A stretch of 64,000 bases of DNA from Apostichopus japonicus. Lineage: Eukaryota > Echinodermata > Holothuroidea > Aspidochirotida > Stichopodidae. The stretch is from contig NC_092562.1 in assembly GCF_037975245.1 (NCBI RefSeq), forward strand, positions 21,223,054-21,287,053. Direction: 5' to 3'. This document shows, in pieces, positions 37,201-59,122 of the stretch (its first letter is position 1; each line of letters opens with the position of its first letter). Made by a program: the position numbers and the translations under genes. The notes beneath the pieces were generated by a model. It did no database searches, was not told where the DNA came from, and worked only from the letters and a program-made list of their open reading frames with translations.

Positions 37201-40200
37201 GATTAACTAATGCTTAACATTATTTCCATGTTCTTGTAGAAAACGTCAAGTTCGCAAAATACAATTGGTTGTTTTTGTAGTTACGTGAGATCCGTAACAG
37301 ACGAGGTGGTTAGGCTATTTGTTATACACTTAACTGTGGTAGGACATTTTTTCCGTATTTTTGGAAATTCTAGAAAATACTTTCTTTCCCCCCCCCCCCC
37401 CCGCATAACACCAGATGTGGTCTTACGGTTTATTCATAAATGGGTGTACTAGAACCTTGTATACATGACATTAGTTGCATTTAGCACGATTTGCCAGTTT
37501 CGCGTGAATTTGTCGAAAGTGTTTTGCTGGATCTTTCGTAAAATTTGAAAGGTGTACCAACTTACTTTTCGTACACAATTGGTAATTTCTCTACTGATTT
37601 TCAGAGTTTTTTTTTACGATCTCCAATCGATACATTTCCTTTGATCATGTATTTGAACAACTATTACCAAGTTGAGTATTCGACCCGGTATTGTCTGGTC
37701 GGAGAGTTCAAAGTGATGGACAGGGATTGTAATCATTTCGATCGAACATGCATTGACTGGATTATCTGCGCCGCCGCTGTTGGCTCGATATAAAGTACAC
37801 TTGTGCCGCGAATCAGGAAGTTTTCACAAAAGGATAACAGCGTTCAAGTTTAAGCCATTCATATCGCCGGATACATCGGGGGGGGGACAAAAGTGGGATT
37901 ACGTTCGCGGTTTATGATTCGACTGATCGTAAGTTGTTTTGTTATTTCGCGTAATAGACAAAATAAACACGGGAATTGATACGCGATTTTTGCCAATAAT
38001 TTAATTTTCAGTTGATATCATAATTTCGTTTAAACGTTCATAAGGTTTTATTAAACGTTTAAACGATGTTTCGTTCGTTTACACGTTTAAACGTGTAAAC
38101 AGCACAGACTAACAAAGAAGGTATCTTCATTACAAAGTTTGCACTTTCTGTGGTGGAAAACTTGTCCCAAAACTATTAAGTAATTATGTGATATTTGAAG
38201 CATTGTATTGAGAATGATTACAGGTAAGTAGTTAAACCTTGAAGTTAGGATTTTCTCAACAGTACAGCAGTATAGCAGGCGTGATTATATCACACATTTA
38301 GACATGTTTTTTTTATGAAGTTTCATGTTTCAGAATTATTGTTAAGTGCCCACAAATTTATGCTATTTACATTTTCCTGTTATTTTCTGTGTAATATTTC
38401 TATACAAATTATGCTCCTTTTATTCTCTACCATATATAATTCCATGCCAAAATACTCCTTTTATTCTCTACGTAAATATTGTTATGTTGCAAATTGCTGT
38501 AATGTCAGTTTATATTGTGTGTATGCACTATGCAGTGATAACTTATTCAAATCCTAGTATGTGTTTAGTATGTTGCTATGGTAACCCTTTGTATCTCAGT
38601 AAAGAACCCTGCATTGTCAAACAGCCTGAGTGATTACCGATTGGCTTAGAGTACCTTGCATATATGCATATTGCTACTGTAGTTACACTGCTGTATAAAC
38701 TGTATACTGTACACTTTATATATTTAGTGTGTACATATGACAGTAACTTAATGCAACAAACAATATGGAAAAGGGATTTTAATATCACACGGTAAAAGTT
38801 ACAAACTTTCACACATTGACTAAGATGTACTTCTTTTTTTCTTTTCTTTTTTTTTAAATTCTGTGCAGCTTGAAAACTTGCTGATTAGCTCCAATGGCCT
38901 AATAAAACTCTGTGACTTTGGAAGTACAACCAACAAATCTCATCAGCCAGACGAAACTTGGACTTCTTTGAAGAGGAATGTGGTGGAAGATGAGGTAATT
39001 TGAGATGACCTACTCGATGAAAACTTGACGGTTAATTATTACTAACCAGTATTTGTCAAGTTTATATGTGGTATACGTACTCAAATATCTCAAAGAAAAA
39101 ATACAGATAAATAATTTACATAAAGTTAAATGTATGAAGGGATAAAGATATGAGTCAGTCAGTCAGTCAGTCAGTCAGTCAGTCAGTCAGTCAGTCAGTC
39201 AGTCAGTCAGTCAGTCAGTCAGTCAGTCAGTCAGTCAGTCAGACAGACAGTCAGTCAGTCAGTCAGTCAGTCATTATCCTTAAGCTTTAAAACTCTCACA
39301 CCTAAATGTTTATAAGAAGGAGCCAGAAGAACCATGGTCAGAATGAAAACTCCTGATCGAGCCGTGTAAGGCATGGCTCCTGCAGGTTAATTAGAATTTT
39401 TAGTTTGAGTAAAACAGACAATGGCATTTTGGTGAAATGAGTGAAGTTGAAGAGAGCAGTAAAAATAATGAGAGGTTGCTCCAGACCTGGCAAACCCACC
39501 CTGCCAGGATGTACCCTTACGCTAAGAAAAAAGAAAATAGTTCCCGGTGACTGGGCTGTTCCCCAGAGGAGGACTATTCTTCTGGGGTTTTACTCACAAA
39601 CTCCTGTCTCTTACTCTGCTCCCCCATCCCCTCCCCCTCAAACAACAAATAAGCAGGAGAAAAATGGGCTATAAAGAGACTAAATGTTAAACAAAAGAGC
39701 TACCTCAAAGAAGATCTTCAACCATTCATATTTTCTTGGTACACTTAAGCAACTTGAAGCCTGTCCCTGTAAATATTCACCTAGAGATATTCAACCCTCT
39801 GATCTGCTAACCTTTAAAAGTCGTGACCTTTAGTATAAACAACTAAAGCATCTGTCTATTTGTACAACTCACTTGCCAGGTAAAGAAAATGAGCACAAAT
39901 ATATATTGTTTATGAATCTTCATTTCTCAATTTGCGCCAGATTTGTTCTCAAACTACTCCTATGTACAGACCGCCAGAAGTATTGGACCTTTACCTTAAC
40001 TTTCCAATCAATGAGGCAATGGACGTGTGGGTAAGAAGTACATTATGTACATTAATGAGCTAGGAAGGGTTGTATCCACTGAACGATGTGGTACCTTTGA
40101 ATAATGTTATCTGCAAGGTTTCAAAACAGAGGACTTTAATACTAATGTACAATGTAGGGTTATCATATTGCTTTGATTATTTCGTTACTAAAGAATGTTC

Positions 40201-43200: not shown

Positions 43201-46200
43201 TGGACATCATATGCTAAACACTAGTGGTCGCTCATGTACCGTTTTCTTGTTATGTTTCGGGGGTTGAAGCTTGCTCTTGTAAGGTTTAGACTGTTCTGGT
43301 AGCAATTATTTCATATCATCGGTTAAAAGATTAATCATATATTTTAAATTCTGGAAGGTTGAATTTTTAGGATCATTTTGTTTACTGAATTGAGGTAAGA
43401 GTTAGGGTGGGGTTAGAGGAGGGGAAGGACTACTGATAAACTTTTTGAGTAGCGAGGGATCGGCACAGGGCACTGAACACTGCAGAAAATTAATAGGAAG
43501 AAGATACTCATAGCTTTGGTTGAAACTTTGCTGTCTGTTAGCAGGTAATTTTTCATTTGGGGGGGGATGGTGATGGCAGGGGGGTGGTGAGGGCAGGGGG
43601 GTGGTGAGGGAATTTTAAAGTTATTAATCAACTTCAGGGTGCTTGTTCAGACTTTCTGTCTCATGATAAGCACTGCACAATGTCTAGCCATACAACTGCA
43701 TCACAATATTCCAATTACCTCTCCTCTTCCTTTGTAGCTATGCGAAAGCTGACCTGGATCTGTCGTACTTAACATCTCGCATAGTCGTGATGTCGTATCC
43801 ATCGGACGGCATCGAGTCTGCATACAAACATCACATCGACGACGTCAGGAACTACTTAACATCCAAACACGGAGGGCGCTATTACGTCTTCAACTTGACG
43901 CAGAAGAAGTATCGCTCTGAAAAATTTGACAAAAGAGTAAGTTATTCCTAATCATGTGAGAAGAAATGAAAAGGAAACCTCTATTTTCAATTGTTTGATG
44001 TTTGCAATTTTCAAAATATTCCTCATGCTATCTAAAGGCATCTTAGCGTGTTATCTGGTCATAGGCTTGTTCATTAGAAACTTTCTGTAAGTATGGGAGG
44101 ATTCTGTAAGCCAGGGTAGAAAGTAGTCCATATCTCTAGCTAGTGGCTTTATCAGATCTAATAAATATTGATAGTTTGATTTTTAAGATTTTATTACAAA
44201 TTTTCCCATACATAGGGATGTTAAAAATCTGCTGCTAGAACTGTTTTTGAAAAATATGGAGAATATAAAGTTAACTTTTGATGTTTCTTGTTGGACATAA
44301 AATCATGAACAGACACTTAAGCAGTGCTGTAAAACCTCTCCTGGAATTTTTGTTTTGCTACAAAATTTTTATGATTGTGAACTAAATATTCTTCTTTGAT
44401 TCTATCAGTGTATGTAAACATGCACTGGGATGTATGTATAAAGTTGTCACTCTGTACAAATATTTTCACAGGTACTTGATTGTGGTTGGCCGACCAAGAA
44501 GGCACCAACGTTGGCTTTATTGTACACAGTTTGCAGGAACATGTATCTTTGGCTACAGAAGGATCCACAGAATGTCTGCATAGTCCACTGTACGGTAAGA
44601 ATTGTACACATTAAGCCATAACATGTATCTTTAGCTACAGTAACACATACATAATGTCTGCATAGTCCACTGTACGGTAAGAATTGTACACAGTAAACCC
44701 TAACATGGGATTTAGGCTACAGAAGCACATACAGAATGTCTGCATAGTCCACTGTACGGTAAGCATTGTACATAGTAAGCCATAACATGTGATTTTGGCC
44801 ACAGAAGGACTTCTCAGGACTTTTTTGCTTAAGGAAGCATGAACTCCTTGCACACAGGAAGCCCTAACATGTCTTTTTGGCTACAGAGGGACCCACAGAA
44901 TGTCTACTTAGTCCACTGTACGGTAAGAATTGTACACAGTTAACCCTAACATGTGATTTTGGCTACAGGAGACTTCACAGGACTTTTTGCTTAAAAAGCA
45001 CATACAGAATATCTGCTTTGGTCATTGTATGGTAGGGATTGTACATAGTAAGCCCTAACATATGTCAAACAAAGGACCCATGGAATGTCTGCTTAGTTCA
45101 CTGTAATTTAAGAATTATACACAGTAAACCCTAACATGTGCTTTTGTCAACAGAAGGAACATGTATGGAACGTATGTCTAGCTTCTCTGTACTGCAAGAG
45201 TTTACACGTAATGTTAACCTGTAATTAACTGCACAATAATAAACTTTAAAATTTGATGTCATACTTTCTCTCTGTGGATGCTGCTATGAATTGTGTTGTG
45301 ATGCAAATCTTGTTTTGATATTTACTTACGGTAAGACGAAAATAATTTGTAATAGTTTTGTAATTTCATGACTCTAAATCACTAACTGCCATGGATGAAA
45401 TTATAACTTCCTTGCAATAGCAGCCATATATCTCTACTTCCTAGAAATATCCCTGTTTATAAATCTGGTCACATCTGCTGTTTTTTGTTATCATTACTCT
45501 GGCAGCCATTTTACAGTAAATCTCTCTGTTCTGTTTCAGGATGGGAAGGCCTCATCAGCTACAGTCGTTTGTTCTTTTCTATCCTTCTGCCGGCTCTTCC
45601 AATCCACAGAGGCGAGTCTCTATCACTTTATAGTAGCCCGCGGCCCTCCATCCATCAGTCCATCGCAAAAGAGGTAAAGTCAGGTTCTGTTCCATGGTAA
45701 AATACTTTTCTTGCTTTTTCATCTCCCTTCAACATTTTATGAAAAAAATAAATAAAATGCATTTTGCACCTGGCAACCCAGCTGAGAAAACACTGTTCAT
45801 ATCTTCACTTGAATTTTTCTCACGTGTGACATTTCTCTCTTTTTTTTCTCCTACCTCTCCTTTTCCCCTGTTGGTTTCTTTCTTCTCTCCATTTCTTGTC
45901 TACTAATCCCCTTACATCTATCTCTTTGTGTTCACCATGCTCATTAACCTGTCTGTATTCTGTGCGTGTTTTTGTCCCTTCTGTTACTGTAACTTGTCAT
46001 TTGGCCTTTGAAGAAGATCCTGCTAGGATCGAAACGTCAGGCCAACTTACTTTTACACATTCTCCTACACAGACTCTCTAGTGGATAAGCAGTTTGCTAA
46101 CAGTTTTATTTTATTTTTATCTTCTGTCAGATATATGGACTACATCAGGAAGATGTTGGCTCCAGAGAAACCAATTGCACCTCATAAAAACATCATCTTT

Positions 46201-52200: not shown

Positions 52201-55200
52201 ATTAAAGTAGTAACAGATATACTTCTTATACGGTATGACGAAACAGGCGGCTTAGTAAACATCTTACACAAATAATCGGGGGGGGGGGGCCTGTTTATTA
52301 ATACATTTATAAATCAAACAAAGAACCTTGAATGTAATGTGTTGCTCAATGGGGGAGCCAGTGTAAAGTGAAAAGACAATCCCTGGTACTGTCATATTTT
52401 CATCTGCTAAGAGTCAATTTTGCAGATTGGTTTTATATAGACTGTAAGGGAAACAGGGTAGAGGCAGGTAAACCGATCAGTAAAGCATTACAACAGTCAA
52501 GATGAGATATTACGAGACCCAAGACCACAGATTTACAACGTTCACAATCAAGGAACTTCCGATTCTGTCTGATTTTGTTAAGGTTACCACTAGCAATCCT
52601 GCATTTCTCAGAAATATGTTTTTTCAGAGACAAATTAGTGTCAAGCTGAACCTCAATAGTTTAACAGAGACAACAACGTCAACAATATAACTTGTCTCAG
52701 TCTTGTTGTACTAACATACCGAGTAGTACTCAAAATAGGATTAACGAAGGGCAATCCTTATTCATTTTTATACCAAATTGTCTTTAGATGTGCAAGTCAG
52801 TGACGGATCTGATTCATTCTTAGACATTTTAGTCGCCCATACACTTTCCCAGATCAGCCGTAACCACATGTAAAAAATCAATGTGGAATGTTCTGCATTG
52901 TTTTAAGTTTTCTTTGCATTTTTCTGGAATGAAACTTGACCAGTCAAATTATCATTGGATGTTAGCATTTTTTTCTGTAGAATTGAAAAATGAATCAAAA
53001 TCCACTAAAAAATCCACTTTAAATTGGCAAGAGGGTAGTCAGAGACAGAAGTGTCACCAAACATTGGGATGTCCTTTGTGGTAATGTTCATCGCTCGTTT
53101 AATCGTTTTCATCTCCGCAGAGCCACAGTGGACCCGATTTGATGGCAGGATGGGGAAACACCCCTATCAGCGAAATCCAGAGGTCCCAGACACCTCCCAT
53201 GAGTACGGAACAGCTGAGGTTTGATCCATTCGGAGATCTCACAGGTAAGTCGACATACGGGGTGGCTGATAAAAATCTGCATATTGTAATTTAATTTTTC
53301 ACAATCTGGTGGTAACCATACATAGTGGTTATAGGAAAGACAAAGAACCCACTATACATAAGCTGATATCGCATGTCCATTGGCATTCCAACCGGAATGA
53401 TGAAACTATCAAGGATGGCTTCTATATATTAACTAACTATGTATTTTGTTTTGAGAAGGAAACAGTAATACCTCAGTAACTTAGTAGCCATATGATTGAA
53501 ACAACATGTACGGCTTAGTTAGATTGAAGAGTATCCAGTTATGTGGGGTTATATTACATGTTAATACAACATCATGCAAAATGAATTACATGGCCTGATC
53601 AGAATGACACAGAGTTAAATACAACTATATGCAAAATATGAAATGCATTGAAACTTCACTGCTTAGAAGCAATCAACCTGGTGGTAACCACACTTATCTC
53701 TTAGTCAGAATGAGTGGTATCCAGTTGTGTGTGATTATATTACATTGCCTGGTCAGAATGACACAGAGTTAATACAACTCAATGCAAAATGTGAAATGGA
53801 TTGAAACTTCACTGCTTAGAAGCGATCAAACTGGTGGTAACCACACTTATTTATCTCTTAGTCAGAATGAGTGGTATCCAGTTATGTGTGATTATATCAC
53901 ATTGCCTGGTCAGAATGACACAGAGTTAATATAACTCGAAGCAAAATGTGAAATGGATTGAAACTTCACTGCTTAGAAGCGATCAAACTGGTGGTAACCA
54001 CACTTATTTATCTCTTAGTCAGAATGAGTGGTATCCAGTTATGTGTGATTATATCACATTGCCTGGTCAGAATGACACAGAGTTAATATAACTCGAAGCA
54101 AAATGTGAAATGGATTGAAACTTCACTGCTTAGAAGCAATCAACCTGGTGGTAACCACACTTATTTATCTCTTAGTCAGAATGAGTGGTATCCAGTTATG
54201 TGTGAATATATCACATTGCCTGGTCAGAATGACACAGAGTGAAATCAACTTAATGCAAAATGTGGAATGCATTGAAACTTCCACTACTTAGAAGCAATCT
54301 GTTAGACACAGAGTTACAACCTCAGTGCAAAAGTACTAAATGACGAAAGCTTTGAAGGCCACTCGTTGGGAGTGATCCACTCCACAAGAGCTACTCTGTA
54401 TGTCTCAAGCAAACTCTAATCAAACCGTTCTGGTAGGATTACTGGTGTTTGGTTAGATTCAAAGCAACACAGTCTGTACAGCCAGTGAGCCAGGGAATGT
54501 GTGGACTCAAACTTGATCATTCCTAAATGAGATGGGTATTCGTTTCATGTGCAATTCTTATTTCTCCATCCATCCCCAAGTTGTAGAGTTTCTCCGTGAA
54601 CTTATTGACTATCACTTCCTAGCAAGAAATTTAAACAGGTGGAAGTACGAACCAATTATCCCATCCCATACTTCCAGCTGCTTTAGTTTCCTTGGTTACA
54701 GTCGTTCTCATGAATATTGTTGTTTCTTTGCCATCTGTGCGCTCAGGAAACTTCAAGAGTAGTCTGCCATCCGCTGCTCCCAGCAAACAGAAGCAGCAGC
54801 CCCAACCACAAACATCTAGCTCCCCCCAACATCACCAGCGGCAACCACCACCACCACGGCAGGGAACATCTGCTCCTCCTATGGCACAGGCAACCAGACC
54901 AAACTATTATGGAAGCAGCTTCTCATCAGTCATTGGGGGTAGAGGGACAGGAGGGAAAACTTTTACCCCTGGACCTAGAGGTAATGTACAGTCATGAGTC
55001 ATGGGGGGGTTACAGTCATCAGTCATGGGGGGTAGAGTGGGTACAGTCATCAGTCATGGGGGGTAGAGTGGGTACAGTCATCAGTCATGGGGGGTAGAGG
55101 GGGTAGAGGGACAAGAGGGAAATATTTGACCCCTGGACCAGAGGTAGTGTGAATGGCTCTGTGGATGAGTGTGAAGGTGACATTGTGAGGCAGTGTGGAT

Positions 55201-57792
55201 GACAGTGCCAGAGTTAGTGTGGATGACAGTGTGAGGCAGTTGGAGGAGAGACTATCATTTAGAACAGGGTTGTCCAACCTACGGCCCGCGGGCCACAGTC
55301 CGGCCCGCCGCAGGGTTGCGTCCGGCCCGCCAGAGATACTCTACGGTGAGAAATTTTAGTGAGCAGATTTATTGATAACAATTTGAAGCTATATAATCAA
55401 TCATTTGAACCTTCTGGGTCCAAAAAACTGCATACAGGTCAGTTTGTGTGACACTCTCAGCGGAGGGGGGAGGGGGGGCGGCTGGACTTTATTCATCTGT
55501 TTTATCAGGAAGGAAAATAAATCAGTGCGCTCCGCGCGCAGTGCTCACATTTTGTTGCCCTGGGCTTCGGGCAAAAAATCGAAAAATCGAGCGTAGGGTT
55601 CATGCGGCCCCCTCCTTCATCATACTCATTCCATGTGGCCCTCCTCTGCAAAAGGTTGGACAACCCTGATTTAGAAAGTGTTAGAAGATCGTAGCAGGCA
55701 GTTTCAAAGAAACTGCAGCAGGCAGTTTGAGGAACGAGGAATTATGATGTGCAGTCTGGGCAGATGCATGAAACAAAGTGATATTAAACAATGGATGAAG
55801 CAGGTGAATCACAGAATTGTCCAGAGACTGAAGTGGTACCTTATTCAAATTTGTATTGTCAAGATCATCCATACAGCTCGTTAACTATTAGCAAGGTTGA
55901 TATCCTGTGTCCTTATAACATGGACGAAGAGATCCTGTTAGTCCAAACTATGTCCATATATTTGGATTTACAAAGAAAGAAAAAAACTCAAAGTTGCCAT
56001 AAAACATTCAGAAAACTTGTTACATTTTGCTTCAAATCCACTCCACGAGATTGGAAGACAAACATGAACCATTAATTAAAAACCTAACATTTGTGATAGA
56101 TTATGATCTTTTTGAAGAACATGTTTCTGTTTTCTTTCCCGGTAGTTATGAAGCCAGGAGCAAGAGACAAGGACTTTGGAGATTTACTGAGTGGACACGA
56201 GTTTACCTCCCAAGCCGAGGAACAAGTCCCAAAATCAATCAAACAAATGCGACGGAAGCAGTTAGAGGAATCCACAGATCCAGAGGTTTTGAAGGTACGT
56301 TTTTGGTCGTCGTAGGCCAGATTAACGTAACATCTCCGTAGCGTGAAACGTGCATCGTGTTTTAGTCGCTGGAGTTTGCTGTAGATGTTATTGAGATATG
56401 TCAGAGTAAACGTTTGAACCTTGAAGGTTTCGATTGTCCAGGGAATAAATTCTGGATATTTACAGTTTTTGATGTTTATGGAGATTTCATCTATTATAAA
56501 ATATTGAAATGTTAACGATTTCTATGTACCGAAGCTGTCATGCAGGGTTTGTAGCAGTTTGACCATTTTATATAGCAGGATGGTATGGGATAACAGAACA
56601 ATTATTCCCCGTTGCCATTAGCAACCAGCTCAAGTTACGTGAGTGTTTGGTAATACCCCAACTACCAGTAGTTGCCAATTCTAGTTTGAAATTTGTGCCA
56701 TACCAAGAAGACATATATGGAAACAATTGCACAGAATCAGTACTCAGTGAAAATTGTGCCACTCCCACAGTGCTGTTCTTGTCATTGGTTTGTGGGCTGT
56801 GTGCATACAAGGCATTAGAATTTGATATAAAAAGCACTTTGAAGTATAAAGTTTAGGCAAGATGACAAGACAACCTCCAATCTTTTAGACATTAAAAAAA
56901 TATTAACCGGGATCTAATTTGATACCAACAGGTCAAAGTTAATCCATGTTTTTGAGGTGGATGTGTGACGTTATAAATATCACCATAGCAACAAAGTTTT
57001 ATCTTAAAAATGGAAGCGATGTTTGGTACTTCATCATTACCTCATCTCATTATCTGTAATGTTCATCTCTGATAACAGGTGCGTGACTGGACCGAAGGCA
57101 AGGAGAATAACATCAGAGCTCTGCTATGTTCTATGCACACTGTCTTGTGGGAGGGAGAAACAAGGTGGAAACCAGCAACGATGGATAAATTAGTAACGGC
57201 TGATCAGGTTAGTAACCTACAAGGCGGGTCTGTTTCGGTAGAGTTGATATCCAGTAAGATGGGGGTGGGGGGTGGGTGGGGGCTGCTTTGATTGGTTAGT
57301 CATTGGCAGTAAAGAGCTTGTAATTTATAGTTGAGATGTATAGTTCTGTGTTATAAACTGATATGCTAGTCAAATGTTTACTTGTTGTGGAGTTGGTTAT
57401 TTACGTTTACCAAATTGTCATTCGTAAAATTCTTGTGATCGTCATGTTATTGGGGGTGTTTTCTAAACACTTCTAGGTTAGTTGTTGTACTTTAACTGTT
57501 GTGTGTGACACTTTTTATCGCTTCTTTTTATAACTGTCCGTTAAAAAGTAGAAAGAACACCGAGCCGTATAACTGCGCATTTGTGAGTAAACAACGCTAG
57601 CTTTCAAGGCGTCTTATCACTTTCTTTACTTTTGAATTGCAGGTGAAAAAATGGTATCGCAAAGCAGTTCTCTCTGTACACCCTGACAAACTGGTGGACA
57701 CACCGCAAGAGTCGCTGGCGAAATTAATATTCATGGAATTAAACGATGCCTGGGCGGAGTTTGAAGACAGCGGCAGTAAATCTCTCTGCTAA
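31266..57792 (+). CDS. GAK: Cyclin-G-associated kinase (auxilin-2), complete, 23 exons
   Basis: Exons: 31266-31395, 33810-33871, 34682-34741, 35340-35594, 38869-38994, 39941-40030, 40765-40900, 41918-42088, 42989-43115, 43738-43936, 44472-44594, 45540-45673, 46131-46247, 46834-46914, 48089-48206, 48754-48833, 49844-50037, 50796-51808, 53121-53244, 54747-54980, 56146-56294, 57079-57207, 57643-57792. They join in frame to 1333 codons plus stop (human GAK is 1311). Order: NAK-family kinase (~30-325), PTEN-like domain (~390-550), C2 domain (~560-715), disordered adaptor-binding linker (~735-1190), J domain (~1245-1333). GAK recruits Hsc70 to clathrin coats and drives uncoating at the trans-Golgi, endosomes and plasma membrane; it also acts in mitosis. 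The start [15 protein letters not shown] leads into [11 protein letters not shown] as in vertebrate GAK. AAK1 and BIKE share the kinase but lack the PTEN/C2/J parts, and neuronal auxilin lacks the kinase. Confidence 0.96.
36475..38111 (+). mobile_element. ~1.6-kb insertion bounded by CGTTTAAACG palindromes
   Basis: Both ends of this segment carry clusters of the palindrome CGTTTAAACG or AAACGTTT, at about 36490-36555 and 38025-38100. The outermost bases are similar when inverted: TAGGGCTGTGAG on the left, and TAGTCTGTGCTG as the complement of the right end. No long reading frame is present. It lies in GAK intron 4, the largest intron of that gene. It looks like a non-autonomous DNA transposon with subterminal palindromes; the exact boundaries and target duplication are not resolved. 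Confidence 0.5.
39153..39272 (+). repeat. (CAGT)n tetranucleotide microsatellite
   Basis: About 30 CAGT units, interrupted only by two CAGA variants near 39241, lie in GAK intron 5. The near-perfect purity suggests it is polymorphic. Confidence 0.97.
40526..40735 (-). mobile_element. tRNA-derived SINE, truncated at its tRNA head
   Basis: On the minus strand the segment begins with a B-box-like word GGTTCGAGTC (40719-40728), continues through a non-tRNA body and ends in a (TACA)n tail at 40526-40555. This is the order expected for a tRNA-related SINE whose A-box half is missing. It ends only about 30 bp before the acceptor of GAK exon 7 at 40765. The family assignment is from pattern memory; no name is claimed. 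Confidence 0.55.
42989..45673 (+). other. GAK PTEN-like domain exon block (exons 9-12)
   Basis: Exon 9 encodes the amphipathic lead-in NFFGMVKGG ... [18 protein letters not shown]. Exon 10 begins the tyrosine-phosphatase-like fold ([20 protein letters not shown]). Exon 11 ends in VCIVHCT and exon 12 continues [14 protein letters not shown], so the P-loop is split by intron 11 right after the cysteine. The loop reads HCTDGKASS. The arginine of the active CX5R motif is replaced by serine, as it is by alanine in vertebrate GAK and auxilin. The domain is thus expected to bind phosphoinositides without phosphatase activity. Confidence 0.9.
44541..45215 (+). repeat. 82-bp tandem array derived from the 3' end of GAK exon 11
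   Basis: Units start at 44541, 44623, 44705, 44787, 44869 and 44951 with an exact 82-bp period, then at about 45060 and 45136. The first unit is the last 54 nt of coding exon 11 plus the first 28 nt of intron 11. The later units therefore carry copies of coding sequence plus the GTAAGAA splice donor. Units 1 and 2 share 40 identical bases across the donor. Units at 44787 and 44951 are more diverged and have lost the donor. Confidence 0.92.
46001..46045 (+). other. Conserved-looking double hairpin with GAAACGTC loop
   Basis: The outer stem TTGGCCT (46001-46007) pairs exactly with AGGCCAA (46039-46045). The inner stem GATCC (46016-46020) pairs with GGATC (46026-46030) around TGCTA. The internal loop is TTGAAGAA opposite GAAACGTC. 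The TGAAGA...GAAAC arrangement recalls a hammerhead ribozyme core (CUGANGA...GAAA), as known in Penelope-like elements. The first C is replaced, one A is extra, and only two stems are visible. It lies in GAK intron 12, 86 bp before exon 13. Confidence 0.5.
47541..47599 (+). repeat. (GATCA)n pentanucleotide microsatellite
   Basis: About eleven AGATC units, with two AGATT variants, lie in GAK intron 14. Each unit contains a GATC site. Confidence 0.95.
49259..49312 (+). repeat. CAGTGTTACAAT minisatellite
   Basis: Four to five imperfect 12-18 bp copies containing TCAGTGTTACA lie in GAK intron 16. Confidence 0.7.
50649..50715 (+). repeat. Short tandem duplication before GAK exon 18
   Basis: The phrase AGTAAGTTAGGATAAACTCT plus CTTGAAG occurs twice, about 31 bp apart, in the last 150 bp of intron 17. 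Confidence 0.75.
51918..52690 (-). mobile_element. Decayed non-LTR retrotransposon (LINE) 3' end
   Basis: On the minus strand, 52433-52633 encodes a reverse-transcriptase C-terminal segment of the type [24 protein letters not shown]-like stretch follows with a stop and frameshift. Then 52053-52271 gives [18 protein letters not shown] and [11 protein letters not shown], the usual end of CR1/L2/Jockey-like polymerases. The element ends with GGCGCTATATAAATG and a short (TTA)n tail near 51918. It is 5'-truncated and broken by stops. It sits antisense in GAK intron 18. Confidence 0.85.
53681..54305 (+). repeat. Tandem repeat, four copies of ~157 bp, in GAK intron 19
   Basis: The phrase GTGGTAACCACACTTAT recurs at 53681, 53834, 53991 and 54148 (spacings 153, 157, 157). 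The middle two units are almost identical. A degenerate first copy begins near 53309 with GGTGGTAACCATACATAG. No coding potential is seen. Confidence 0.92.
54987..55143 (+). repeat. Tandem copies of the 3' end of GAK exon 20 inside intron 20
   Basis: A ~31-bp unit TACAGTCATCAGTCATGG... repeats at 54987, 55011, 55042 and 55073. The last copy continues into a 66-nt segment (55078-55143) that closely repeats the last 58 nt of exon 20 (54923-54980), including the end CCCCTGGACC-AGAG and a following GT. So the end of the coding exon and its donor region have been copied into the intron that follows. Confidence 0.85.
55257..55676 (+). mobile_element. 404-bp hAT-type MITE with perfect TIRs and 8-bp target duplication
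   Basis: The element occupies 55265-55668. Its ends are perfect 16-bp inverted repeats, CAGGGTTGTCCAACCT and its complement. Both flanks carry the same 8-bp word ATTTAGAA (55257-55264 and 55669-55676), the mark of hAT integration. The interior is GC-rich and has no transposase. It sits in GAK intron 20. It is intact at both ends, so it may still be mobilisable by a transposase elsewhere. Confidence 0.92.
56146..57792 (+). other. GAK J-domain exon block (exons 21-23)
   Basis: Exon 21 encodes the acidic/basic lead-in [12 protein letters not shown] and [19 protein letters not shown]. Exon 22 gives [24 protein letters not shown] and the following helix. Exon 23 contains the HPD tripeptide in LSVHPDKL, which stimulates the Hsc70 ATPase, and ends [14 protein letters not shown]...SLC with TAA at 57790-57792. 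HPD is intact, so the uncoating co-chaperone should be functional. Confidence 0.94.
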
Positions 57793-58691: not shown

Positions 58692-59122
58692 CTCCTTCAG
58701 CTTCCTTCAGTGTGAAAAGGTAATAAGTTGAGCATATTTTAATGTCTTAATGTTATTTTAAAATTGATCTTTGCTTTTAACCCCTATGCAAACATTTGTT
58801 TTTAGTTGGGTATTTCTGTAATACAGAGGGAGTTTGTTATTGTTTTCAAAACTGAGGACAGTGTATCATTGTCACCCGTTAAATGTGTCAACTTACTCAT
58901 TGGTGGTTCTGTTAACAAGGTGAGAGTCTTACTAAACAAGGTGAGAGTCTTACTAATTTAAGACACCAAACCAAAGTTTCTCACAAAATTATTTAAAAAG
59001 CTTAACCTTACCCTCACATTACGTGCCGAGTCTATTTAGTAAAAGTTTTAAGATGATGACCTTTTTTTTTTACCAGGTTTTAACTGTTGTAAAAAAAAAC
59101 ACTTGGATCATCTGTGTCCATC

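Follow-up and report, generated by a model that had tools for sequence, protein, structure and literature searches.

An 82-bp tandem array of an exon end and its splice donor in an intron of the GAK/auxilin gene of Apostichopus japonicus

The minisatellite of the human gene 6-16 (IFI6/G1P3) has a 12-bp unit and reportedly provides multiple splice donors, and its alternative donors are said to be really used. In lancelets, minisatellite-like tandem copies of exon–intron boundaries, termed "mirages", have been described in Adh3 and in the globin genes BflGb6 and BflGb9, in the parts of the two accounts available (PMC3087553, PMC3902484). The available part of the later account adds TnC and PGBD5 as further lancelet cases, PGBD5 with similar repeats (PMC3902484), and RT-PCR results in that of the earlier one suggest that lancelet mirages are spliced normally (PMC3087553). 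Human tandem repeats at exon–intron boundaries have been associated with new introns and with alternative transcripts, as far as the accessible text goes (PMC2812944), and tandem genomic duplication is described, within the same limits, as a source of introns (PMC3443670, PMC4974935). An echinoderm-specific literature query returned no paper combining all its terms, which is not proof of absence. Here we describe an array of this kind in the echinoderm Apostichopus japonicus.

The host exon and the units of the array

The window is the whole stretch of DNA that was analysed (64,000 nt; NC_092562.1, positions 21,223,054 to 21,287,053). When the gene was read exon by exon, exons for a kinase, a PTEN-like domain and a J-domain were found in this order, as is characteristic of GAK/auxilin. 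The kinase match (Pkinase, E = 7e-4, 38824–39000) and the J-domain match (DnaJ, E = 6e-6, 57601–57789) each come from a single exon, and lie under the Pfam cut-off. The PTEN-like domain was recognised with a peptide joined from three exons (44472–44594, the one starting at 45540 and the one after it), which matched the PTEN-like domain of auxilin (3n0a) with E = 9e-26. The translation of the exon at 44472–44594 continues in the same frame into DGKASS... at 45540, across an intron of 945 nt (44595–45539).

Analysis with TRF detected a tandem array at 44519–44968, with a period of 82 and 5.5 copies. Searches with nhmmer and local alignment carry the array on to about 45224, the last piece being 45115–45224 (E = 2.5e-10), and it occupies about two thirds of the intron. 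After unit 1, about eight further units follow, which keep an 82-bp register to 44929 and are then irregular and decaying. The exon, the units and the rest of the intron are listed below, with a slash marking the exon–intron boundary or its copy.

44472–44594, + strand: exon of the PTEN-like domain of the GAK/auxilin gene, 123 nt long, starting and ending in phase 0, based on its translation and the auxilin 3n0a match
44519–44600, + strand: unit 1, the final 76 exon nt and GTAAGA, with the authentic donor GT at 44595
44601–44682, + strand: unit 2, donor copy ACG/GTAAGA, GT at 44677
44683–44764, + strand: unit 3, donor copy ACG/GTAAGC, GT at 44759, with a candidate in-frame 36-nt cassette at 44723–44758
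44765–44846, + strand: unit 4, first half alone recognisable, donor lost
44847–44928, + strand: unit 5, donor copy ACG/GTAAGA, GT at 44923, with a candidate in-frame 36-nt cassette at 44887–44922
44929–45037, + strand: unit 6, with a 27-nt insertion, donor altered to ATG/GTAGGG, GT at 45032
45038–45113, + strand: unit 7, decayed, donor lost
45114–45225, + strand: unit 8 (to about 45199, donor altered to ACT/GCAAGA) and a partial unit 9, the most decayed
45226–45539, + strand: remainder of the intron after the array, 314 nt, without a unit by local alignment, with the acceptor TCTGTTTCAG at its end

Units 1, 2, 3 and 5 are 82 bp each, with pairwise identities of 65–69 out of 82 positions (79–84%), and all four retain CACTGTACG followed by GTAAG at the boundary (that is, ACG/GTAAG). 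When delimited in register with unit 1, units 6, 7 and 8 measure 109, 76 and 86 bp, respectively. By eye, a stretch related to the insertion of unit 6 is also present in unit 4. The exact donor is gone from units 4, 6, 7 and 8, corresponding to four of the seven intronic units 2–8.

These results bear out much of the preliminary description of the locus. It had proposed that the first unit consists of the exon end, the donor and the first intron bases, which is the composition found (76 exon nt plus GTAAGA), and that units 2, 3 and 5 keep the donor, which was confirmed as ACG/GTAAG in each. Alignment of the units to the exon, on which it had made its proposal depend, was obtained, and it was right that the array originated by tandem amplification of the exon end and donor. 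The extent given earlier, 44541–45215, describes a real array, but the start lies 22 nt further into the exon, at 44519, and the end reaches about 45224. An exact 82-bp period with at least five more units holds for the starts of units 1 to 6, which are 82 apart, but unit 4 is half-lost and the later units are irregular.

Unit 1 crosses the donor at 44595, such that the repeat unit spans the exon–intron boundary, and many of the units, not all (1, 2, 3 and 5), keep the splice signals. The GAK array fits the structural definition of a mirage.

Origin of the array and age of the intron

A dispersed repeat or transposon was considered as the source of the array and rejected, because the unit region has no match other than this locus in the 671.6-Mb genome searched, in which the counts are lower bounds. 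A retrocopy, which would reveal the junction in use, was sought indirectly, and a DNA search with 44400–44640 returned this locus alone.

Intronic units 2–8 share changes at exon positions, with CAGGAAC changed to CC[A/C]TAAC. The exon encodes CRNM at these positions, as auxilin does. The shared changes, and the retention of CRNM in the exon, suggest that the exon is likely the source, and that the intronic units come from a diverged copy. Incompatibility with one tree was seen for 15 of the 28 informative site pairs in units 1, 2, 3, 5 and 6. This would fit exchange or conversion among the units, and could also be produced by repeated mutation or constraint.

A paralogous PTEN-like exon is present on contig C23 (L021:2955–3077), in a PTEN-like gene that may be tensin-like. 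It is 46% identical to the GAK exon, is also 123 nt long and in phase 0, and has matching borders, starting with VLD and ending with HCK/GTAAG. In comparison with structures, PTEN and auxilin match it about equally (E = 0.002), and an NCBIfam search with it gave nothing useful for finer naming. No copy of its tail was found within the 8,001 bases fetched, in which the best other match was 13 nt. The presence of the same exon ends in a paralog without an array suggests that the intron is most likely older than the array.

Two other accounts of the array bear on its history. The tandem duplication itself could have made this intron, according to the tandem genomic duplication model, which is well supported for other genes in the available text of the source (PMC3443670), and exon-derived repeats do fill two thirds of the intron. 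However, no ungapped repeat of at least 20 nt is shared by the downstream exon and the intron (44001–46200), the duplicated segment already contains GTAAGA, which is missing from the joined coding sequence, and the single paralog ends its exon at the same codon with GTAAG. With a prior intron indicated by this one paralog, and no copy of the downstream exon at the 3' end of the intron, intron gain by tandem genomic duplication is highly improbable and was rejected. The array could instead be an assembly artefact, since tandem arrays are prone to misassembly, but units 1, 2, 3 and 5 show 13–17 differences from one another over 82 positions, and private indels occur in others. This degree of divergence, with units 79–84% alike, together with the private indels, argues against assembly stutter. 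In addition, the published A. japonicus assembly, if it is the one used here, was made from PacBio HiFi reads, by the portion of the report available (PMC10344927). We regard an artefact as exceedingly improbable.

The history of the array may be reconstructed as follows. Tandem duplication at the beginning of the intron took in the final 76 exon nt and the first 6 nt of the intron, a step that can be read directly from the repeats; the paralog indicates that the intron was most likely already present by then. The shared changes and the incompatible sites suggest that one diverged copy within the intron was next amplified, with unequal exchange or conversion reshuffling the units. Decay has gone furthest on the 3' side, where the most decayed units lie. 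The spliceosome most likely takes the exon's own first donor, which would remove the whole array with the intron.

Donor strength and the consequences of inner-donor use

The predicted U1 pairing energy (duplexfold) is −8.2 kcal/mol, and identical, for the four ACG/GTAAG donors. The same value was obtained at the altered donor of unit 6 (ATG/GTAGGG, 45032), and outside the array for ACGGTAAGA at 45331. GTs this strong make up about 1.5% of the 3914 on the + strand of the window. Up to four near-identical donors had been counted before, and these four do have equal U1 energy, but the count leaves out the two additional GTs that equal them. Because the four donors are equal in predicted strength, U1 pairing does not guarantee exclusive use of the first. 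The isolated ACGGTAAGA lies inside TTACTTACGGTAAGA (45321–45336), in the same intron beyond the array, and is possibly a relic or a chance occurrence.

Use of the inner donors of units 2, 3, 5 and 6 would add 82, 164, 328 and 437 nt, respectively, and in each case would lead to a stop after VRIVHIKP (8 codons). The conserved HCTDGKASS is obtained from the first donor only. Of all these donors, it alone preserves the reading frame of the conserved domain, and normal splicing is reported for the lancelet counterparts. On these two grounds, we consider the array to be most likely a passive splice-boundary minisatellite, or mirage, with the exon using its own first donor.

The invariance of the donor end is the finding that tells most strongly against a purely passive array. 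Units 1, 2, 3 and 5 vary in 27 of their 82 columns, but in none of the final 19 nt, donor included (shuffle p = 0.004, uncorrected). Two further groupings, out of three in all, were evaluated, also without correction: the intronic units alone gave p = 0.025 for the invariant donor end, and units 1–3 alone gave p = 0.00015 for an invariant run of 29 nt. Donors held under constraint could account for the invariance, as could local conversion by the exon, itself a constrained sequence. The human boundary repeats associated with alternative transcripts (PMC2812944) also weigh against a passive reading, as does the IFI6 minisatellite with its reported multiple donors.

The preliminary description had suggested that the array may shift donor choice, generate cryptic exons or act as a decoy, roles to which the sequence analysis lent no direct support. 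As a decoy for unproductive splicing, it would have its extra donors used some of the time, giving exon versions of at least 205 nt that carry a premature stop and undergo degradation, such that the GAK level is lowered or tuned. The donors of units 2, 3 and 5 equal the real donor in predicted U1 energy, every donor tested (units 2, 3, 5 and 6) introduces a stop, and no invariant stretch in units 1, 2, 3 and 5 is longer than that at the donor, all of which this reading would accommodate. The loss of the exact donor in units 4, 6, 7 and 8, however, speaks against a general constraint, and lancelet mirages are reported to occur without splicing disturbance, in the text available from the two sources (PMC3087553, PMC3902484). 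We consider such a decoy unlikely. A self-renewing version, in which conversion from the exon keeps the inner donors functional, the competing sites lower productive splicing or yield in-frame microexons, and the strength of the effect follows a unit number that varies among individuals, is quite unlikely.

The candidate cassettes of units 3 and 5 were considered as nascent exons, spliced as microexons that would lengthen the P-loop region. Each consists of an AG after CTACAG, 36 nt of open frame and a donor in place, with a branch-like CCCTAAC upstream. The pyrimidine fraction before the cassette is 0.63 in unit 5, the same as at the exon's own acceptor (44471), so the acceptor of unit 5 cannot be dismissed on this measure; that of unit 3 is just 0.42, compared with 0.74 at the intron's acceptor (45539). 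The open frames, however, are expected, because the units derive from coding sequence, and the corresponding cassette in unit 2 opens with a stop. By eye, five of the six changed codons in the cassettes of units 3 and 5 alter the amino acid, and we therefore make no coding claim for the units. An insertion here would, moreover, land in the conserved HCxDG loop, and use of the cassettes as exons is very unlikely. The passive array, removed with the intron from the first donor, remains our preferred reading.

A second boundary duplication and comparison with known systems

The same gene contains another duplicated exon end, further downstream:

54923–55148, + strand: second exon-end/donor duplication, with the donor at 54981 and a copy carrying a donor-like GT at 55144

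The copy of the exon end and donor is 53 nt long, matches at 89%, and lies 163 nt downstream of 54981. Between the donor and its copy is a 31-bp minisatellite built from TCATCAGTCATGGGGGGTAGAG. The array at 44519 had been called unusual, which overstates the case, with mirages known from several lancelet genes and a second boundary duplication in the GAK gene itself.

Minisatellites are common in the sequences studied, with 24 arrays in 272 kb (the window and 21 loci) that have a period of at least 30 and two or more copies. One of 157 bp (53588–54299, 4.5 copies, 94% matches) lies between recognised exons of the GAK/auxilin gene, and starts 343 nt past the donor at 53245. An array with several tandem AAGGTGGGT donor-like sites (L021:4588–4945) is located close to the paralogous PTEN-like exon of contig C23. 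Elsewhere in the genome, five COX1 fragments were found on contig C29 (G000:C29:14745–31219), besides one on the mitochondrial contig C35; the former are either copies of mitochondrial DNA in the nuclear genome or the result of misassembly of a mitochondrial piece. Read by eye, the mitochondrial contig follows the echinoderm code, with AAA as N and ATA as I at conserved COX1 sites, and carries the genes cox1, nad4L and cox2 in this order.

Boundary duplications were found at two of the 16 candidate donors of the GAK/auxilin gene (the 44595 array and 54981), the 16 having been chosen by eye from the sequence. For comparison, the 208 kb of L001–L021 (both strands) contain 636 donor-like GTs, of which 16 have a downstream copy spanning the site; these 16 fall in five loci, with nine of the 16 in one L021 array. 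On the + strand of the window, seven of 121 donor-like GTs have such a copy, comprising four in the 82-bp array, 54981, and two past the last recognised exon of the gene, at 58920 and 59296, with tandem copies downstream. The counts are too small for us to claim an enrichment of boundary duplications in the gene, and the two out of 16 are compatible with minisatellites arising regardless of exon ends.

The GAK array extends splice-boundary minisatellites from lancelets to an echinoderm, with two boundary duplications in one gene. It is a clean natural case of several tandem donors of equal predicted strength, and RNA-seq data that already exist could show directly how the spliceosome selects one of such near-identical donors. 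Should the array be passive, it exemplifies intron growth by the copying of exon ends.

The GAK array has in common with introns attributed to tandem genomic duplication that exon sequence and splice signals were duplicated together in tandem; unlike them, the GAK intron most likely predates the array, which lengthened it and did not create it. The array resembles the repeat of IFI6/G1P3 in being a tandem repeat at an exon end that offers several donors, here predicted ones, but differs from it in its 82-bp unit, against a reported 12 bp, and in that the extra donors, said to be used in the human gene, are predicted in ours. The closest likeness in structure is with the lancelet mirages, which also consist of tandem copies of an exon–intron boundary, many of them with splice signals. 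In the available parts of the lancelet accounts, the 3' exon end is duplicated in BflGb9, as it is here, the units of BflGb6 are 81–100% identical, compared with 79–84% for the 82-bp units 1, 2, 3 and 5 of the GAK array, and the lancelet units show signs of exchange (PMC3087553, PMC3902484), which the incompatible site pairs of the GAK units may likewise reflect. Unlike the lancelet mirages, the GAK array occurs in an echinoderm, and has an 82-bp unit and about nine units, the most decayed of which lie at one end.
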